DNA of 64,000 nt from positions 1-64,000 of the forward strand of contig JAPLQX010000032.1 in assembly GCA_026399435.1 (NCBI GenBank), given 5' to 3'. The first letter of the stretch is position 1, and the number at the start of each line of letters is the position of its first letter. The position numbers and the translations under genes were made by a program. Origin of the DNA: Rhodocyclales bacterium. GTDB lineage: Bacteria > Pseudomonadota > Gammaproteobacteria > Burkholderiales > Rhodocyclaceae. The notes under the pieces are model-generated. The model made no database searches, was not told the origin of the DNA, and saw only the letters and a program-made list of their open reading frames with translations. Shown here in pieces: positions 41,138 to 46,376 of the stretch.

Positions 41138-42922
41138 ATGCTCCATCTCTCCCGCGATATCCTGATTGGCTTCCTGCTGGTGTGCGCCGCGGCCTGGGGC
41201 CTGATGTCCACGCGCACCCTGCGCTTCGCCGACCAGTCGCTCTACGATGCCCAGGCGCGCTGGATGCGCACCAATGCGCCGACGCCGCTGGCCCACGATG
41301 TCGTGGTCATCGGCCTCGATGAGGCCGCCTACGAAACCATCCCGGAGCCCACGGTCCTCTGGCACACCCACCTGGCCGCCCTGTTCGCCGGCCTTTCGGC
41401 CGCGCAGCCGGCCGTGGTCGGGCTGGCGATACCGCTGCCGGTGCGCTCCTACGACTTCCTGGTCAAGGACATCGATGCCACGCTGATCGCCGGCATCTAC
41501 CTGCTGCGCGGAGCGGCACCGCTGGTGGTCGGCCAGCCGCCCGGCGTCGGCACCCGGCTGCGCCCCATCGCACCGGAACTGCTGACCGCCATCGGCCCGG
41601 GCGCAGTGGCTTCGCTGGCCATCTGCGAAGACACCGACGGCACCGTGCGCCGCATCAACCAGAGCCGCTGCCGCTCCGAAGACAAGCAGGAACCGCTGGC
41701 CATGGCGATGGCGAAGCACCTGGGGCGGGAGGGCTCGCCCACCGGCATGATCGACTACAGCGTCGGCGGTGCCATCGAATACACGCCGGTCGGCACGGTG
41801 CTGGACTGGATCCACCGCGGCGAGGATGAGAAGCTGCGCGCCCTGGTCAAGGGCCGCGCCGTCGTGGTGGCCAACCTGCTGCCGACCGAAGCCCGCCATC
41901 GCCTGCCGGTGCCGCTGGCCGCCTGGGAACCTGCGAGCCGCACCGAGCCGGGCGCCGTGGTGCACATCCAGGCCCTGCGCTCCCTGCTCGGACGCGGCCT
42001 GATCGAGCGCGTGCCGCAGAGCCTCTCGCTGCTCCTGGCCGGGCTCGGTGCGCTGCTCTGGTTCGGCCGCGGCGGCTGGCTCAAGGCCCTGGTGCTGGCC
42101 GCCATCATCGGCGGCTTCCTCGCCGGTTCCACCTTCGCGCTGTGGCACGGCAGCTACCTGCCCGTGGCGAACATCGTCATCGTCACGCTGCTCGCCTTCA
42201 CGGCCCGGCAGGCATGGGACTTCGCCCGCCGTTTCCACGAAAGGCAGACCTTGCGCACCATGTTCGCCGGCCACGTCAGCCCGCAGGTGATGCGTGCCCT
42301 GCTTGGTGGCGAACTGCAAATCGAGCAGAACGGCCAGCGCCAGAACGTGACCCTGTTTTTCGCCGGCATCCGCGGCTTCGCGGCGCGCAACGCGCAGTCC
42401 ACGCCCGAGGCCATGATCAGTCTGCTCAACCGCTTCCATGCGGCCGCCGCGCTGGCCATCCAGAACAGCGGCGGCGCCGTCGACAAATACGTCGGCGACG
42501 GCCTGATGGCGACCTTCGGCCTGCCGCAGCCGCTGCCGGCACCGCAGCGCAACGCGCTGGAAGCCGCGCAGGACCTGCTGTTGCGCGTCGACCAGCTCAA
42601 CCTCGAACTCGCCGCGGAAGGCATCGAAGCACTCAAGATCGGCATCGGCATCCACTGCGGCGAGGTGCTCGCCGGCCATGTCGGCTCGCGCCGGCGCCGC
42701 GAGTTCTCGGTGATCGGCGACGCCGTCGCTGTCGCCAGCCGCCTCGAAGCCATGACCAAGGAATACGGACATCCGGTGCTCTGCTCCCAGGATGTCGCCG
42801 CCGCCGTGGGCTTTGCCGGGGGCCTGGTCGATCTCGGCACGCCGACGCCGAATATGCCAAATTCACCCCACCTTTGGGGCTGGACGCCGCCGCTGACGGC
42901 GCCGCCGGGAGGAGGCAAGTGA
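41138..42922 (+). CDS. CHASE2 protein with degenerate class III nucleotide cyclase domain
   Basis: The 594-residue protein has an N-terminal TM, a periplasmic CHASE2 sensor (about residues 25-300), two or three TM helices (about 300-365), and a class III cyclase-like domain (about 395-570). The first metal Asp of the FADIRGF motif is Gly (FFAGIRGF, G410), while the second is kept (D454 in KYVGDG). The transition-state Asn of the GDxVNxASR motif is Ala (GDAVAVASR, A531), with R535 kept. Catalysis is therefore doubtful. The C-terminal ~35 residues are Pro/Gly-rich and look repeat-derived. It heads a five-gene overlapping operon with an MCE transporter (GTGA overlap with the permease). Confidence 0.85.
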   Translation: MLHLSRDILIGFLLVCAAAWGLMSTRTLRFADQSLYDAQARWMRTNAPTPLAHDVVVIGLDEAAYETIPEPTVLWHTHLAALFAGLSAAQPAVVGLAIPLPVRSYDFLVKDIDATLIAGIYLLRGAAPLVVGQPPGVGTRLRPIAPELLTAIGPGAVASLAICEDTDGTVRRINQSRCRSEDKQEPLAMAMAKHLGREGSPTGMIDYSVGGAIEYTPVGTVLDWIHRGEDEKLRALVKGRAVVVANLLPTEARHRLPVPLAAWEPASRTEPGAVVHIQALRSLLGRGLIERVPQSLSLLLAGLGALLWFGRGGWLKALVLAAIIGGFLAGSTFALWHGSYLPVANIVIVTLLAFTARQAWDFARRFHERQTLRTMFAGHVSPQVMRALLGGELQIEQNGQRQNVTLFFAGIRGFAARNAQSTPEAMISLLNRFHAAAALAIQNSGGAVDKYVGDGLMATFGLPQPLPAPQRNALEAAQDLLLRVDQLNLELAAEGIEALKIGIGIHCGEVLAGHVGSRRRREFSVIGDAVAVASRLEAMTKEYGHPVLCSQDVAAAVGFAGGLVDLGTPTPNMPNSPHLWGWTPPLTAPPGGGK

Positions 42923-43680
42923 ACGCCTTCGCCAGCAGCCGCGTGGGTGGGTCCCTGAGCGGCTACCTGCTCCTTGCCTGGTTCGCCGCCAGCCGGCGCC
43001 GCGAACTGCGCCGGCCGCTCCTGCGCTATCAGTTCCAGCGCCAGATTTACGCGGCCGGCGTCGCCGCCCTGCCTGTGATCGGCGTGCTGGCCATGCTGAC
43101 CGGGGCCACGGTCGTCACGCAGCTCGCCGCGCTGGTCGGCACCGACAGCGACCTGACCCAGCGCATGATCTTCCTCGGTCTCTTCTTCGAACTGGCGCCG
43201 CTGCTCTCTGCGCTGGTGGTGGTCGCCCGCAGCAGCGCCGGAATTGCCTCGGAACTCGCCGTGATGAACCTGCACGACGAATTCACCACCTTGCGCCGCC
43301 TCGGCGTGCCCGCCGCCGATTACCTGCTGCTGCCGCGCGTCTTCGGCCTGGTCATCGCCCTGCCGGCGGTCACCGCGTGCTTCCAGGTCATTGCCATCGG
43401 CAGCGGCTGGCTTGCCACGGCGCTGATCGAAGGCAGGCCGCTGGCAGAGACGGCCGGACGCTTCCTCGATCTGGCCGACCCGTGGCTGGTCCTGCTGAGC
43501 CTCCTCAAGAGCGCGGTCATGGGTGCCGTCGTCGGTATCATCGCCTGCCACCACGGCAGCAGCGGCAAGGGCTCGACGCAGGCCATTTCCGGGGCCGCGA
43601 TGCAGGCCGTGGGCGGCGGGCTGATCGCCGTCTTCGTGGTGGATGTCGCCTTCGCCACACTGGTCTACGCCTTGAGATGA
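42919..43680 (+). CDS. mlaE: MlaE/YrbE-family ABC transporter permease
   Basis: The 253-residue membrane protein has five or six hydrophobic segments and MlaE-family features such as LPVIGVLAMLTGATVVTQLA, ELAPLLSALVVVARSSAGIASELAVM and DYLLLPRVFGLVIALP. MlaE dimers form the inner-membrane core of MCE lipid transporters. GTG 42919 overlaps the cyclase-like stop and has GGAGG just upstream. It is the first transporter gene of the run of permease, ATPase-like, MCE protein and lipoprotein. The symbol denotes family, not proven orthology to the Mla system. Confidence 0.88.
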   Translation: MNAFASSRVGGSLSGYLLLAWFAASRRRELRRPLLRYQFQRQIYAAGVAALPVIGVLAMLTGATVVTQLAALVGTDSDLTQRMIFLGLFFELAPLLSALVVVARSSAGIASELAVMNLHDEFTTLRRLGVPAADYLLLPRVFGLVIALPAVTACFQVIAIGSGWLATALIEGRPLAETAGRFLDLADPWLVLLSLLKSAVMGAVVGIIACHHGSSGKGSTQAISGAAMQAVGGGLIAVFVVDVAFATLVYALR

Positions 43681-44297
43681 GCACCCTGCACGCCACCCTC
43701 GAAGGCCGCCGGCTGTCGCTGTTCGCCGGAGACCGTTTGTGTCTGACGCTGCCGCTCGACGAAGGCGGCCGTCATCGCCTCGTCGTTGCCGATCCGGCCA
43801 CCGCGCAATCGGCGGTGGAAGCGCTCGAGCACTGCCCCGCGGTCGGCGTGCTACCCGCCAATGGCGGCTTGCTCGGCGCCATGACGGTGGCCGAGAATTT
43901 CACGCTGGCCCTGCGCTACGACGGCGACCCCGAGGATCCGCGCGACTGGGAACACGATCTGGAAACCATCCTCGCACTTTGCGGTCTGCCCGCGGAACGC
44001 ATCGCCACGCTGGGCCGCCAGCAACCGATGAACCTCGAACGCACCGAGCGCTGGACCGTCGGCTTCGCCCGCTGCCTGCTGCGCCCGCCCGAGTTGCTGG
44101 TGATCGACCGCCTCTTCGCCGGCCTGGCGCGACGCGAAGCGAATGCGCTGATCGCCGTGGAAGCCGTCTACCATCTGCGCCACCCCTTCCGGCCGGTGCT
44201 GTTCGTCGACCTCGACAGCCATGAACTGCCCGAACTGCCCGACTGCCGGTCACTGACCGAACTTGCCGAAACCGCGGAGGCCCCATGTCCCTGCTGA
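43677..44297 (+). CDS. degenerate MlaF-like ABC ATPase homologue
   Basis: The 206-residue protein aligns in layout with MCE-system ATPases, but each ATP motif is lost. The Walker A position reads VVADPATAQSAV with no GxxGxGK. The signature region reads PMNLERTERWTVGFARCLL in place of LSGGxxxRvalARal, and Walker B reads ELLVIDRLFAGLA with Arg where the catalytic Glu should be. The Q-loop neighbourhood VGVLPANGGLLGAMTVAENF is recognisable. It overlaps the permease by ATGA and the MCE gene by 13 bp, so it is kept in operon register. It is probably a structural or regulatory pseudo-ATPase. Confidence 0.78.
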   Translation: MSTLHATLEGRRLSLFAGDRLCLTLPLDEGGRHRLVVADPATAQSAVEALEHCPAVGVLPANGGLLGAMTVAENFTLALRYDGDPEDPRDWEHDLETILALCGLPAERIATLGRQQPMNLERTERWTVGFARCLLRPPELLVIDRLFAGLARREANALIAVEAVYHLRHPFRPVLFVDLDSHELPELPDCRSLTELAETAEAPCPC

Positions 44298-45223
44298 TCC
44301 AACACGACAGCGATGCCGCCGCGCTGCGCCGCGGCATCCACCGCTTCCTGTTCGTCGCCGCGCTGGCGACGCTGGCCCTGCTCGCCGCCATCGTCGTTCG
44401 CCAGGGCCTGTTCCGCCAGACCACCACCTACAGTTTCGTCACCGACAGCGCCCAGGACATCGTCAAGGGCCAGGCGGTGCGCATCGCCGGCTTTCGTGTC
44501 GGCGCAGTGGCCGACGTCAGCCTGAAGGACGACGGGCAGGTGGTCGTCACCATGGAGATCGATGCCGATCACATGCGCTTCGTCACTTACGACGCACGCG
44601 TGGAACTGCGCAAGGAAGGCCTGGTCGGTTCGCCTACGCTGGAAATCGTGCCGGGGCCGGACAAGAGCCGGCTCGCCGCGGCCCAGGCGCGGCTGACGTT
44701 TTCGCGCGCCGAGGGCCTCGGCGCGCTGGCCAATCAGGTGCGCGACGAGTTCGTGCCCATCCTCAGGGACATCAAGGTCATCACCGGGGTGCTGGCCGAT
44801 CCGCAGAAGGGTCTTCCAGGTACGCTGGCCCAGGTGCGCGCGAGCTCCGAGGCACTCAACGCCCTGCTCGCCAACAGCAACCGTCAGGTGAACGGCATCG
44901 GTGGCGCCGCCACCCGGGTGCTGGGCAAGGCCGAGGAGGACCTGAGCCAGCTCGGCCAGACACTGGCGGCCGCCAACCAGCGCCTGCCCGGCCTGATCGA
45001 TCGCACGCAACAGGTGCTCGACCACGTCGAGAAGATCACCGCGGAAGCCGAGATCAGCGTGCCTCCGGCCCTGCGCGAAGGCAGCGCCGTGGCCGCGGAC
45101 GTGCGCGAAATAGTCAGCGGCGCCAGGCAGGCGTGGCCGATCCGCAACTTCGTCGATGCGCCGGCGCCGGCCAGGCTGAAGATGGACAGCGATCTGCGCG
45201 GGGAGGCCGGCCGTGCGCGCTAA
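44285..45223 (+). CDS. mlaD: MlaD-type MCE-domain substrate-binding protein
   Basis: The 312-residue protein has an N-terminal TM anchor (about residues 18-40), one MCE domain (about 45-125, with VKGQAVRIAGFRVGAVADVS and RKEGLVGSPTLEIVPGP), and a long helical C-terminal region (about 150-290) that may form a periplasmic needle or barrel. MCE proteins oligomerise into a channel for phospholipids between membranes. It overlaps the degenerate ATPase upstream and the lipoprotein downstream. The symbol denotes family only. Confidence 0.88.
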   Translation: MSLLIQHDSDAAALRRGIHRFLFVAALATLALLAAIVVRQGLFRQTTTYSFVTDSAQDIVKGQAVRIAGFRVGAVADVSLKDDGQVVVTMEIDADHMRFVTYDARVELRKEGLVGSPTLEIVPGPDKSRLAAAQARLTFSRAEGLGALANQVRDEFVPILRDIKVITGVLADPQKGLPGTLAQVRASSEALNALLANSNRQVNGIGGAATRVLGKAEEDLSQLGQTLAAANQRLPGLIDRTQQVLDHVEKITAEAEISVPPALREGSAVAADVREIVSGARQAWPIRNFVDAPAPARLKMDSDLRGEAGRAR

Positions 45224-46073
45224 GACGCTGTTGATCGCAACCCTGATCCTCGCCGGCTGCGCGGCGGCACCGAATTCCGCCACCTCGCCGGCCGAGCCGC
45301 CCCGCCTCAAGGCCGCGCTGGAAGCCGAAAGCGATGGCGCCAAACGCTACGGCCGCGGCGATTACGCCGCCGCGGTGCGGCGCTTCGACGAAGCCGCACG
45401 GATTTACGCCAGCATCGACGACATGCCGGGTGCCGCGCGCAACCGCTTGCATCTGGCCCGCAGCGAACTCGCCCAGGGCCGCGCCGAAGCCGCGCTGCTG
45501 GTGCTGGAATCGGCGGACCGCGGCAGCGACGCCGGCCCGACACTCGACACCCTGCTGCTCAGGGCCCAAGCGCAGTTGGCGCTGGACCGGCATGCCGCCG
45601 CGCAACAGAGCCTCGCCGCGGCGAGCGGCCAATGCGCCGGCGCCTGCCCGCAAGCAGCGAGCCTGCATCTGCTGCAGGCGCGCGCGGCACTCGCCGCGAA
45701 CCTGGCGGCGGATGCGCTCGCGCACGCCGAAGCCGCGCTGAAGCTGTTGCAGGGCAAGGACGAAGCGGCCGAGACCGGCAATGCCTGGCGGCTCATCGCC
45801 GCGGCCCGTCTCGCTGGCGGCGACGCCGGCGGCGCCCTGCCCGCTGCCAACGCCGCGCTGGAGATCGACCGCCAGCTCGCGCTGCCGGAAAAGATTGCCC
45901 GCGACTGGCTGCTGATCGGCGACATCCGGCGCAAAGTCGGCGCTGGTGGCACGGCGGCGGCCTACCGGCGAGCGCTGGATGTGGCGAACGCGGCAGGTCT
46001 CGCCGACCTCGCCCGACAGGCCAAAGAAGCGCTGGCTGCCAACAACGAAGTTCTGCCGGAACGGAAACCCTAG
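45213..46073 (+). CDS. TPR-like lipoprotein of the MCE operon
   Basis: The 286-residue protein has a lipoprotein signal with lipobox LILAGCAAAP (Cys 16). The mature part is Ala-rich and helical, with repeated helix pairs of TPR character (for example AKRYGRGDYAAAVRRFDEAARIY and LDRHAAAQQSLAAASGQ). It overlaps the mlaD-like gene by 11 bp and ends the operon. An outer-membrane partner role comparable to PqiC or auxiliary lipoproteins is inferred from position. Confidence 0.82.
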   Translation: MRAKTLLIATLILAGCAAAPNSATSPAEPPRLKAALEAESDGAKRYGRGDYAAAVRRFDEAARIYASIDDMPGAARNRLHLARSELAQGRAEAALLVLESADRGSDAGPTLDTLLLRAQAQLALDRHAAAQQSLAAASGQCAGACPQAASLHLLQARAALAANLAADALAHAEAALKLLQGKDEAAETGNAWRLIAAARLAGGDAGGALPAANAALEIDRQLALPEKIARDWLLIGDIRRKVGAGGTAAAYRRALDVANAAGLADLARQAKEALAANNEVLPERKP

Positions 46074-46157: not shown

Positions 46158-46376
46158 ATGGCCCGCAAGAACAAACTCGATTTTTCCGACATCGCCGCCG
46201 CACGCAAGAAGCAGAACCTCAACCAGAAGGACTTCTGGACGCGCTATGGCGTCACCCAATCGGGTGGCTCGCGCTACGAGTCCGGTCGCAATATTCCGAA
46301 GCCGCTGGCGATCCTGCTGTGGCTGCATCGCTCGGGCAAGGTGACGGACAAGGATCTGGCAGACGCCCTGAAGTAA
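46158..46376 (+). CDS. small XRE-type helix-turn-helix regulator
   Basis: The 72-residue, highly basic protein consists almost entirely of a HTH domain. ARKKQNLNQKDFWTRYGVTQSGGSRYESG contains the two helices and turn, followed by IPKPLAILLWLHRSGKVT. AAGGAG is placed eight bases before ATG. No toxin gene is adjacent, so it is probably a stand-alone regulator. A palindromic candidate operator lies in its promoter. Confidence 0.8.
   Translation: MARKNKLDFSDIAAARKKQNLNQKDFWTRYGVTQSGGSRYESGRNIPKPLAILLWLHRSGKVTDKDLADALK

Follow-up and report, generated by a model that had tools for sequence, protein, structure and literature searches.

Here, we describe a five-gene operon of the MCE lipid-transport type whose only ATPase gene encodes a degenerate protein. 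The operon lies in a 64,000-nucleotide stretch of DNA (hereafter the window; positions 1 to 64,000 of contig JAPLQX010000032.1, assembly GCA_026399435.1) from a metagenome-assembled genome (MAG) of a Rhodocyclales bacterium (2.88 Mb, 80.9% complete). The general finding is this ATP-binding cassette (ABC) pseudo-ATPase together with the range of its loss. Judging from the sequences the loss is old within the window's order, and elsewhere in the class the operons range from those whose ATPase keeps the P-loop and the catalytic Glu, via near-full-length degenerate proteins, to operons with no ATPase gene. We favour, with modest confidence, the reading that the operon encodes an Mpc-like trans-envelope MCE conduit in which the nucleotide-binding subunit has turned into a scaffold on the permease MlaE and which is not powered by an ATPase of its own.

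Operon organisation

The initial annotation had placed five overlapping genes at 41138-46073, and these coordinates are exact; all five genes are on the + strand and the overlaps are 4, 4, 13 and 11 bp. The genes and the positions of interest are as follows.

41138..42922, + strand: CHASE2 and class III cyclase-like protein, 594 aa (Pfam PF05226, PF00211), two catalytic residues lost
42365..42367, + strand: Gly410 codon, at the first metal-binding Asp position (AGIRGF, against ADIRGF in relatives keeping the Asp)
42728..42730, + strand: Ala531 codon, at the transition-state Asn position (GDAVA, against GDPVN in relatives keeping the Asn)
42919..43680, + strand: MlaE-type permease, 253 aa, GTG start (Pfam PF02405, E 7.4e-40), coupling-helix segment conserved
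43677..44297, + strand: pseudo-MlaF, a degenerate ABC ATPase, 206 aa, ABC fold in the AlphaFold2 model, four motifs gone
43785..43811, + strand: P-loop position of the pseudo-ATPase, residues 37-45, VADPATAQS, with Ala43 at the Walker A Lys (alignment to the genome's own MlaF via intermediates)
43845..43916, + strand: Q-loop/coupling segment of the pseudo-ATPase, residues 57-80, its best conserved part (entropy, 35 sequences)
44109..44111, + strand: Arg145 codon, at the catalytic Walker B Glu position (LLVIDR, against LMMYDE in the genome's own MlaF)
44285..45223, + strand: single-MCE-domain protein, 312 aa, with a long C-terminal part (Pfam PF02470, E 7.2e-15, residues 46-124)
45213..46073, + strand: TPR lipoprotein, 286 aa, lipobox LAGC with Ala at +2 (from the translation; TPR_12, E 2.4e-4)

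Matches over the Pfam cut-off were obtained for Guanylate_cyc (E 1.8e-21), CHASE2 (E 2.6e-16), MlaE and MlaD, and the presence of PF02470 and PF02405 over cut-off in one operon places it among the MCE transport systems; the TPR_12 match to the lipoprotein is under the cut-off. Under the +2 residue rule, which we assume to govern this lipoprotein, the protein would be sorted to the outer membrane. As a test of a periplasm-spanning tube, the MCE protein was modelled as a monomer, but the quality of the model was too low for use (predicted local distance difference test score, pLDDT, 45.6). The operon is not a chance arrangement, because the gene order recurs and the same four overlaps are found in 12 of 31 relative loci.

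Motif losses in the ATPase

Against the Pfam model ABC_tran, the pseudo-ATPase scored 13.4 bits (E 0.12; cut-off 25), and NCBIfam ATPase models matched its residues 57-153, FtsE doing so at E 2.9e-6, far under the curated cut-off. The protein was compared by motif in an alignment, made through intermediate sequences, to the MlaF encoded by the same genome. In this alignment, the MlaF P-loop GISGCGKTT corresponds to VADPATAQS, the signature LSGG to LERT, the Walker B YDE to IDR and the H-loop THD to LDS, and with P-loop, signature, catalytic Glu and H-loop His all gone the protein falls outside the MlaF-like ATPases by motif. The losses of the Walker A Lys, LSGGQ and the Walker B Glu, first read from the letters of the window, are borne out by the alignment. 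Both the ATPase and the cyclase had also been described as full-length and in operon register; the frames are indeed open and overlapping, but the ATPase is truncated, with 206 residues against 284 in MlaF and a shortened stretch between P-loop and Q-loop.

Retained fold, conservation and selection

The AlphaFold2 model of the pseudo-ATPase, built from 26 sequences, has an ABC fold (pLDDT 85.4, predicted template-modelling score 0.82), and membership of the ABC-fold proteins is supported by this predicted structure. In a Foldseek search of the PDB, ranks 1 to 3 were a MetNI chain, the Mce1 ATPase (8fed_G) and an MlaFEDB chain (6xbd_I), the last of which, taken as MlaF, aligned at E 1.5e-7 with a TM-score of 0.65 by query and a root-mean-square deviation of 5.5. 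A viral fold library gave generic ABC matches.

Across 35 pseudo-ATPase sequences from the same order, mean entropy was lowest at residues 57-80 (1.61 bits, against 1.88-2.9 bits in the other eight stretches), and the P-loop stretch was second-lowest in conservation (2.80 bits). Residues 57-80 cover the Q-loop and the beginning of the helical region, where the coupling helix docks in ABC transporters. The coupling helix of MlaE contacts MlaF (PMC7790496). In the permease, the coupling segment has 15 strongly conserved columns, scored against a consensus that was built from the pseudo-ATPase group and favours that group; the mean fraction of these columns kept was 0.87 in pseudo-ATPase operons, 0.63 in P-loop operons and 0.33 in ATPase-free operons, with corresponding values of 0.82, 0.63 and 0.41 for the conserved columns in the rest of MlaE. 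In one ATPase-free operon, L177, the coupling segment is eroded, keeping 0.40 of its conserved columns vs 0.72 in the rest of the protein.

Median ratios of nonsynonymous to synonymous substitution rates (dN/dS, NG86) were 0.36 for the pseudo-ATPase, 0.30 for MlaE, 0.26 for the MCE protein and 0.37 for the TPR lipoprotein, as calculated from 314-376 pairs, not independent of each other, with dS 0.15-1.5 among genomes of the genus and nearby family genomes. For the pseudo-ATPase, single values ranged from 0.07 to 0.84.

Distribution and age of the ATPase loss

Matches to the pseudo-ATPase were found in 32 of 200 relatives, namely the own genome, 25 of the 30 other genomes of the genus, four of the same family and two of the same order. 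A scan of named genome contigs returned 27 loci, all in MAGs, under names such as Sulfuritalea, Sulfurisoma, Rhodocyclales, Rhodocyclaceae, beta proteobacterium, Betaproteobacteria and, once, Burkholderiaceae. When the whole order was searched with a profile of the pseudo-ATPase, mostly ordinary ABC ATPases were matched (314 of 399 genomes); since these swamp the profile, the MCE protein was taken as anchor. The MCE-family model TIGR00996 matched 8 of 14 control genomes too. Searches anchored on the MCE protein matched 22 of 250 genomes from the order, and a draw of 369 genomes from the class gave 6 matches, or 25 with a broader profile, the own genome being counted in each case.

Within the order, which we take to be Burkholderiales in the GTDB sense, none of the 60 operons read (58 loci in one reading, the partial locus L059 and the window) has a P-loop at its place. 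This set includes loci found via the pseudo-ATPase itself, a bias toward degenerate ones, from which 20 operons, all outside the window's family and found or refound via the MCE protein, are free. The P-loop pattern matched off-site three times, twice within the Q-loop segment (L033, L058) and once upstream of where the gene starts (L164). Alignment of 35 same-order sequences to MlaF shows the catalytic Glu in a single one (L173) and, in seven (L061, L104-L108, L186), a Lys in the Walker A column that is not accompanied by the glycine loop. The ATPase loss noticed in the window is shared within the order, the protein being degenerate in every operon read.

Outside the order, 19 loci have a readable gene at the place of the ATPase. 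A P-loop is present in seven (L180, L223, L228, L232, L233, L235, L237), and all but L228 also have the catalytic Glu. Three of these (L180, L223, L232) keep P-loop and Glu with the LSGG signature gone; in L233, L235 and L237 the ATPase looks canonical and there is no TPR hit, and these operons were used as outgroup. The P-loop pattern is missing from the other 12 loci, eleven of which read as proteins of 217-262 aa, including three with the Glu kept (L224, L225, L227). A Lys is kept in a broken P-loop in L229 and L236, and L181 has a 154-aa protein with no ABC match in Pfam, which its position and a short stretch of similarity led us to take for a remnant of the ATPase. In four genomes (L177, L230, L231, L234) the next gene after that for MlaE is the MCE gene, without an intervening ATPase gene. 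The permeases of these four all score over the MlaE cut-off; L177 has a TPR protein as its lipoprotein, and no TPR match was obtained for those of L230, L231 and L234. The loci L221 and L226 stop short of the ATPase. In a tree of MlaE and MCE with 61 rows, in which the window's genus and nearest kin were reduced to eight, a single clade (Shimodaira-Hasegawa-like approximate likelihood ratio test, SH-aLRT, 96) holds L177 and 39 operons with a pseudo-ATPase, and absence of the ATPase gene needs two events.

Other MlaF copies in the genomes

A complete mla operon is found on contig C12 of the own genome, with MlaE, MlaD, MlaA, MlaC, a STAS protein and an MlaF that keeps all motifs (STAS, MlaC and MlaA confirmed by Pfam). 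Thus, the energising ATPase that the initial annotation had supposed to be elsewhere or absent has an intact candidate in the genome, and an orphan MlaF2 on contig C13 (L238:6235-7044) also keeps the P-loop, LSGGM and DE. Beyond the C12 and window copies no further MlaE was found in the own genome, which has one frame with three MCE matches. The H-loop of MlaF2 has Tyr for His in all five orphans read (L238, L239-L242), and no MlaE or MCE hit was found near them in the 8.7-kb contig of the own genome or the fetched flanks of the five. Counted at a chosen threshold of better than 1e-120, MlaF2 occurs in 28 of 30 genomes of the genus, 24 of the 25 with the pseudo-ATPase and 4 of the 5 without; it therefore does not track the operon, and G017, at 99% completeness, carries the operon yet lacks MlaF2. 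For lack of this co-occurrence, a dedicated orphan MlaF2 was rejected as the likely energiser.

More broadly, an MlaF homologue at E <= 1e-40 is present in 45 of 46 genomes tested, the sole exception being G719, whose own operon ATPase (L228) has a P-loop and lacks the catalytic Glu. The operon ATPase is without P-loop or absent in 44 of the 46, the other two being G550 and G719. For 43 of these 44, the best MlaF match has an identity of 52% or more; the exception is G744, with no more than a remnant in its operon and a best match of 39% identity. Among the homologues, motifs and gene context were read in the own genome and, apart from that, for the orphans. In G002, a one-contig genome, there is a further set of MlaE, MlaF-like and MCE genes (L243:4315-7174), the ATPase of which scores 189 bits with the MlaF profile.

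The CHASE2 cyclase

By sequence the first protein of the operon is a class III cyclase (PF00211, as above), but it lacks the full complement of both metal Asp residues and the Asn-Arg pair, with one Asp and the Asn gone. Gly at residue 410 for the metal Asp and Ala at residue 531 for the transition-state Asn are exactly as first annotated, and Asp454 (the second metal Asp), Lys450, Asp528 and Arg535 are kept; we take positions 410, 450, 454, 528, 531 and 535 to have these catalytic roles. In a reading of 26 loci and the window (L036 partial), 19 cyclases including the window's carry Gly in place of the metal Asp and Ala or Gly in place of the Asn, the two changes invariably coinciding, and five close relatives keep both residues (L053-L056 in the genus, L058 in the family). 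The named loci, mostly the same genomes as in this reading, gave 18 of 23 full-length cyclases with both residues lost and five with both kept. A sixth close relative with both residues is L129. L063 and L103 keep the Asp and have Ser for the Asn. The 19 degenerate cyclases form one Sulfuritalea-like clade (SH-aLRT 100), which includes G067, classed in another genus. In the cyclase domain, dN/dS is 0.233 in this clade (168 pairs) vs 0.120 in the residue-keeping relatives (10 pairs). As far as sequence comparison can tell, the cyclase loss is a recent, clade-level addition and the domain is relaxed but constrained. In other families, the cyclase of L062 (G189) lost the Asp independently, and that of L178 (G306) looks degenerate as a separate case.

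The initial annotation had argued for retained non-catalytic roles of both the cyclase and the ATPase. Retention is supported in that both proteins are on average under purifying selection, but the two losses do not form one package: close relatives keep both cyclase residues while their ATPase is degenerate too, and joint loss of the two functions was rejected. Homologous operons with an intact cyclase thus exist, which makes its loss a lineage-level event, though one fixed in the clade. Nor is the CHASE2 cyclase a general head of the system, as had been suggested, since, among operons of the window's order, three families (f1, f24, f25) had it and the other operons fetched did not. Upstream of one class-level MlaE-ATPase-MCE set, and on its strand, there is a cyclase domain that keeps both catalytic positions (L232:8046-8999, G593), and the gene link between cyclase and MCE may for this reason reach beyond the order.

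The CHASE2 cyclase would be an add-on membrane sensor, which might gate the transporter as first suggested, and in the window's clade the pseudo-cyclase, if still acting, would work by protein contact. Pairing with an intact cyclase partner looks unlikely, because, given the structure of such cyclases, the loss of Asp and Asn would spoil both shared sites.

In four genomes (G002, G007, G024, G025), all with both cyclase residues, the genes for MlaE and the pseudo-ATPase are separated by those for another CHASE2 protein and a caspase-like protein. Among the relatives, this pair was seen at L056:2558-5922, at L060:5007-8705 and at the corresponding positions of L052, L054, L055 and L061. The caspase-like protein has Peptidase_C14 and DUF4384 domains and an apparent signal peptide, and at E <= 1e-30 it is absent from the other 29 of the 33 genomes searched. 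Both cyclase residues are kept and there is no caspase-like protein in G010; in G043 and G099, of the same family, the CHASE2/caspase-like pair is present and the contigs stop before any cyclase position.

Comparison with known systems

The nearest layout is that of Brucella abortus Mpc (MpcEFDA), with MlaE, MlaF, a long MCE protein and a lipoprotein (PMC12436622). Like the window's operon, Mpc co-encodes an MlaE-type permease, an MlaF-type ATPase, a long single-MCE protein and a lipoprotein, in the gene order E-F-D-lipoprotein and without MlaC or MlaA. The conserved ATPase and the PqiC-like lipoprotein of Mpc are, however, missing from the window's operon, where the ATPase is degenerate and the TPR lipoprotein has no PqiC-type Pfam match at E up to 1, and the STAS domain reported on MpcE has no counterpart by Pfam in the window's MlaE. 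The Mla system (MlaFEDB with MlaC and MlaA) has homologous permease, MCE and ABC-fold subunits, but also MlaB, a soluble carrier and an MlaF that hydrolyses ATP; MlaB, MlaC and MlaA are absent from the five operon proteins by Pfam, and the genome carries Mla separately on C12. In PqiABC and LetAB, the inner-membrane partner is PqiA or LetA and the proteins are multi-MCE, against an ABC permease and a single MCE domain in the window's operon. The mycobacterial Mce systems with MceG likewise have permease operons without a working ATPase of their own; unlike the window operon, they contain no pseudo-ATPase and share a working ATPase. In transporters with degenerate nucleotide sites one of the two sites stays active, whereas the only ATPase gene of the window operon is degenerate. 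Such ABC transporters resemble the window's operon in keeping the inactive site (PMC7756269).

A degenerate ATPase is not mentioned in the passages covered of a survey of MCE neighbourhoods (PMC5561183), and no published description of such an operon was found among titles and abstract openings, a coverage that mostly excludes subscription journals. Within the literature covered, the claim that no described system has this composition holds, Mpc with its conserved ATPase coming closest.

Proposed mechanism and alternatives

In the mechanism that we propose, the complex would be assembled from the MlaE permease in the inner membrane, the MCE protein, whose long C-terminal part would cross the periplasm, and the outer-membrane TPR lipoprotein. 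The ATPase subunit would have lost its ATP-binding and hydrolysis motifs long ago and have been kept as a non-catalytic scaffold, which would dock on the coupling helix of MlaE and keep the permease in shape; in some lineages the scaffold itself would then have been lost. Lipid would flow down its gradient, or energy would be supplied from elsewhere.

Several observations weigh against this mechanism. Erosion of the coupling segment has one clean case (L177), as the permeases of L230, L231 and L234 are eroded throughout, and single pairs of pseudo-ATPase sequences reach a dN/dS of 0.84. Weak nucleotide contact is possible, because a Lys stands in the Walker A column of 7 of 35 sequences. The tree of MlaE and MCE comes from one quick method and has long branches, and the active ancestor is inferred, because none of the operons seen with the exact MlaE-ATPase-MCE-TPR layout had a fully canonical ATPase. 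Finally, all 44 tested genomes with a P-loop-less or absent operon ATPase hold another MlaF homologue, so that these findings could also be accounted for by a borrowed ATPase.

Such a shared ATPase, in which the canonical MlaF or the orphan MlaF2 replaces or pairs with the dead subunit, would be analogous to MceG, which is encoded apart from the mycobacterial MCE operons that it serves. We consider it rather unlikely, although the own genome has both an MlaF in a full mla operon and the motif-bearing MlaF2, MlaF homologues are present in nearly all genomes tested, and MceG stabilises Mce1 and Mce4 (PMC9947336). The failure of MlaF2 to track the operon and its absence from G017 speak against it, as do the Tyr in the H-loop of every MlaF2 read and the low identity of the best MlaF match in G744, and the conserved docking segment of the pseudo-ATPase would be expected to compete with a borrowed subunit.

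It is improbable, in our judgement, that a reshaped pocket lets the pseudo-ATPase continue to bind ATP or a different nucleotide and act as an energy-state sensor without hydrolysis; the predicted fold and the seven sequences with a Walker A-column Lys may point that way, but the window protein has neither glycine loop nor signature and its P-loop stretch is among the two least conserved. Very improbable is local decay, with the operon as a pseudogene in the making, for which one could cite the cyclase-domain dN/dS of the degenerate clade, about twice that of its relatives, and the 5 of 30 same-genus genomes without a pseudo-ATPase match, including G013, 97% complete. Against it stand the open and overlapping frames, a median dN/dS well under 1 and a cyclase loss common to a clade of 19 members, and for the ATPase, degenerate in 60 of 60 same-order operons, local decay is already refuted and was rejected.

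Neighbouring gene

Directly downstream of the operon, at 46158-46376 of the window, lies a gene for a small RsaL-like HTH protein (PF22495, E 1.1e-24). Of the 31 relative loci, 15 encode this protein at 83-97% identity; several other loci stop before this position. A plasmid search with query P0003 gave no match.

Implications for MCE transport

The force and the direction of lipid movement in MCE systems are still debated. An operon family in which the ATPase passes from motif-bearing to dead to absent, with the permease, the MCE protein and mostly the lipoprotein kept, provides natural experiments, that is, related transporters with vs without a motor. We tentatively suggest, as something that could fall either way, that these operons represent a widespread class of ABC-type lipid transporters turned ATP-free conduits, in which a motor became a clamp and was then lost in some lineages. 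If the transporters are unpowered, the MlaE permease would not be tied to ATP hydrolysis and the label 'ABC transporter' would mislead; and, if this is true, MlaE-type permeases could move lipid between membranes without an ATPase of their own.

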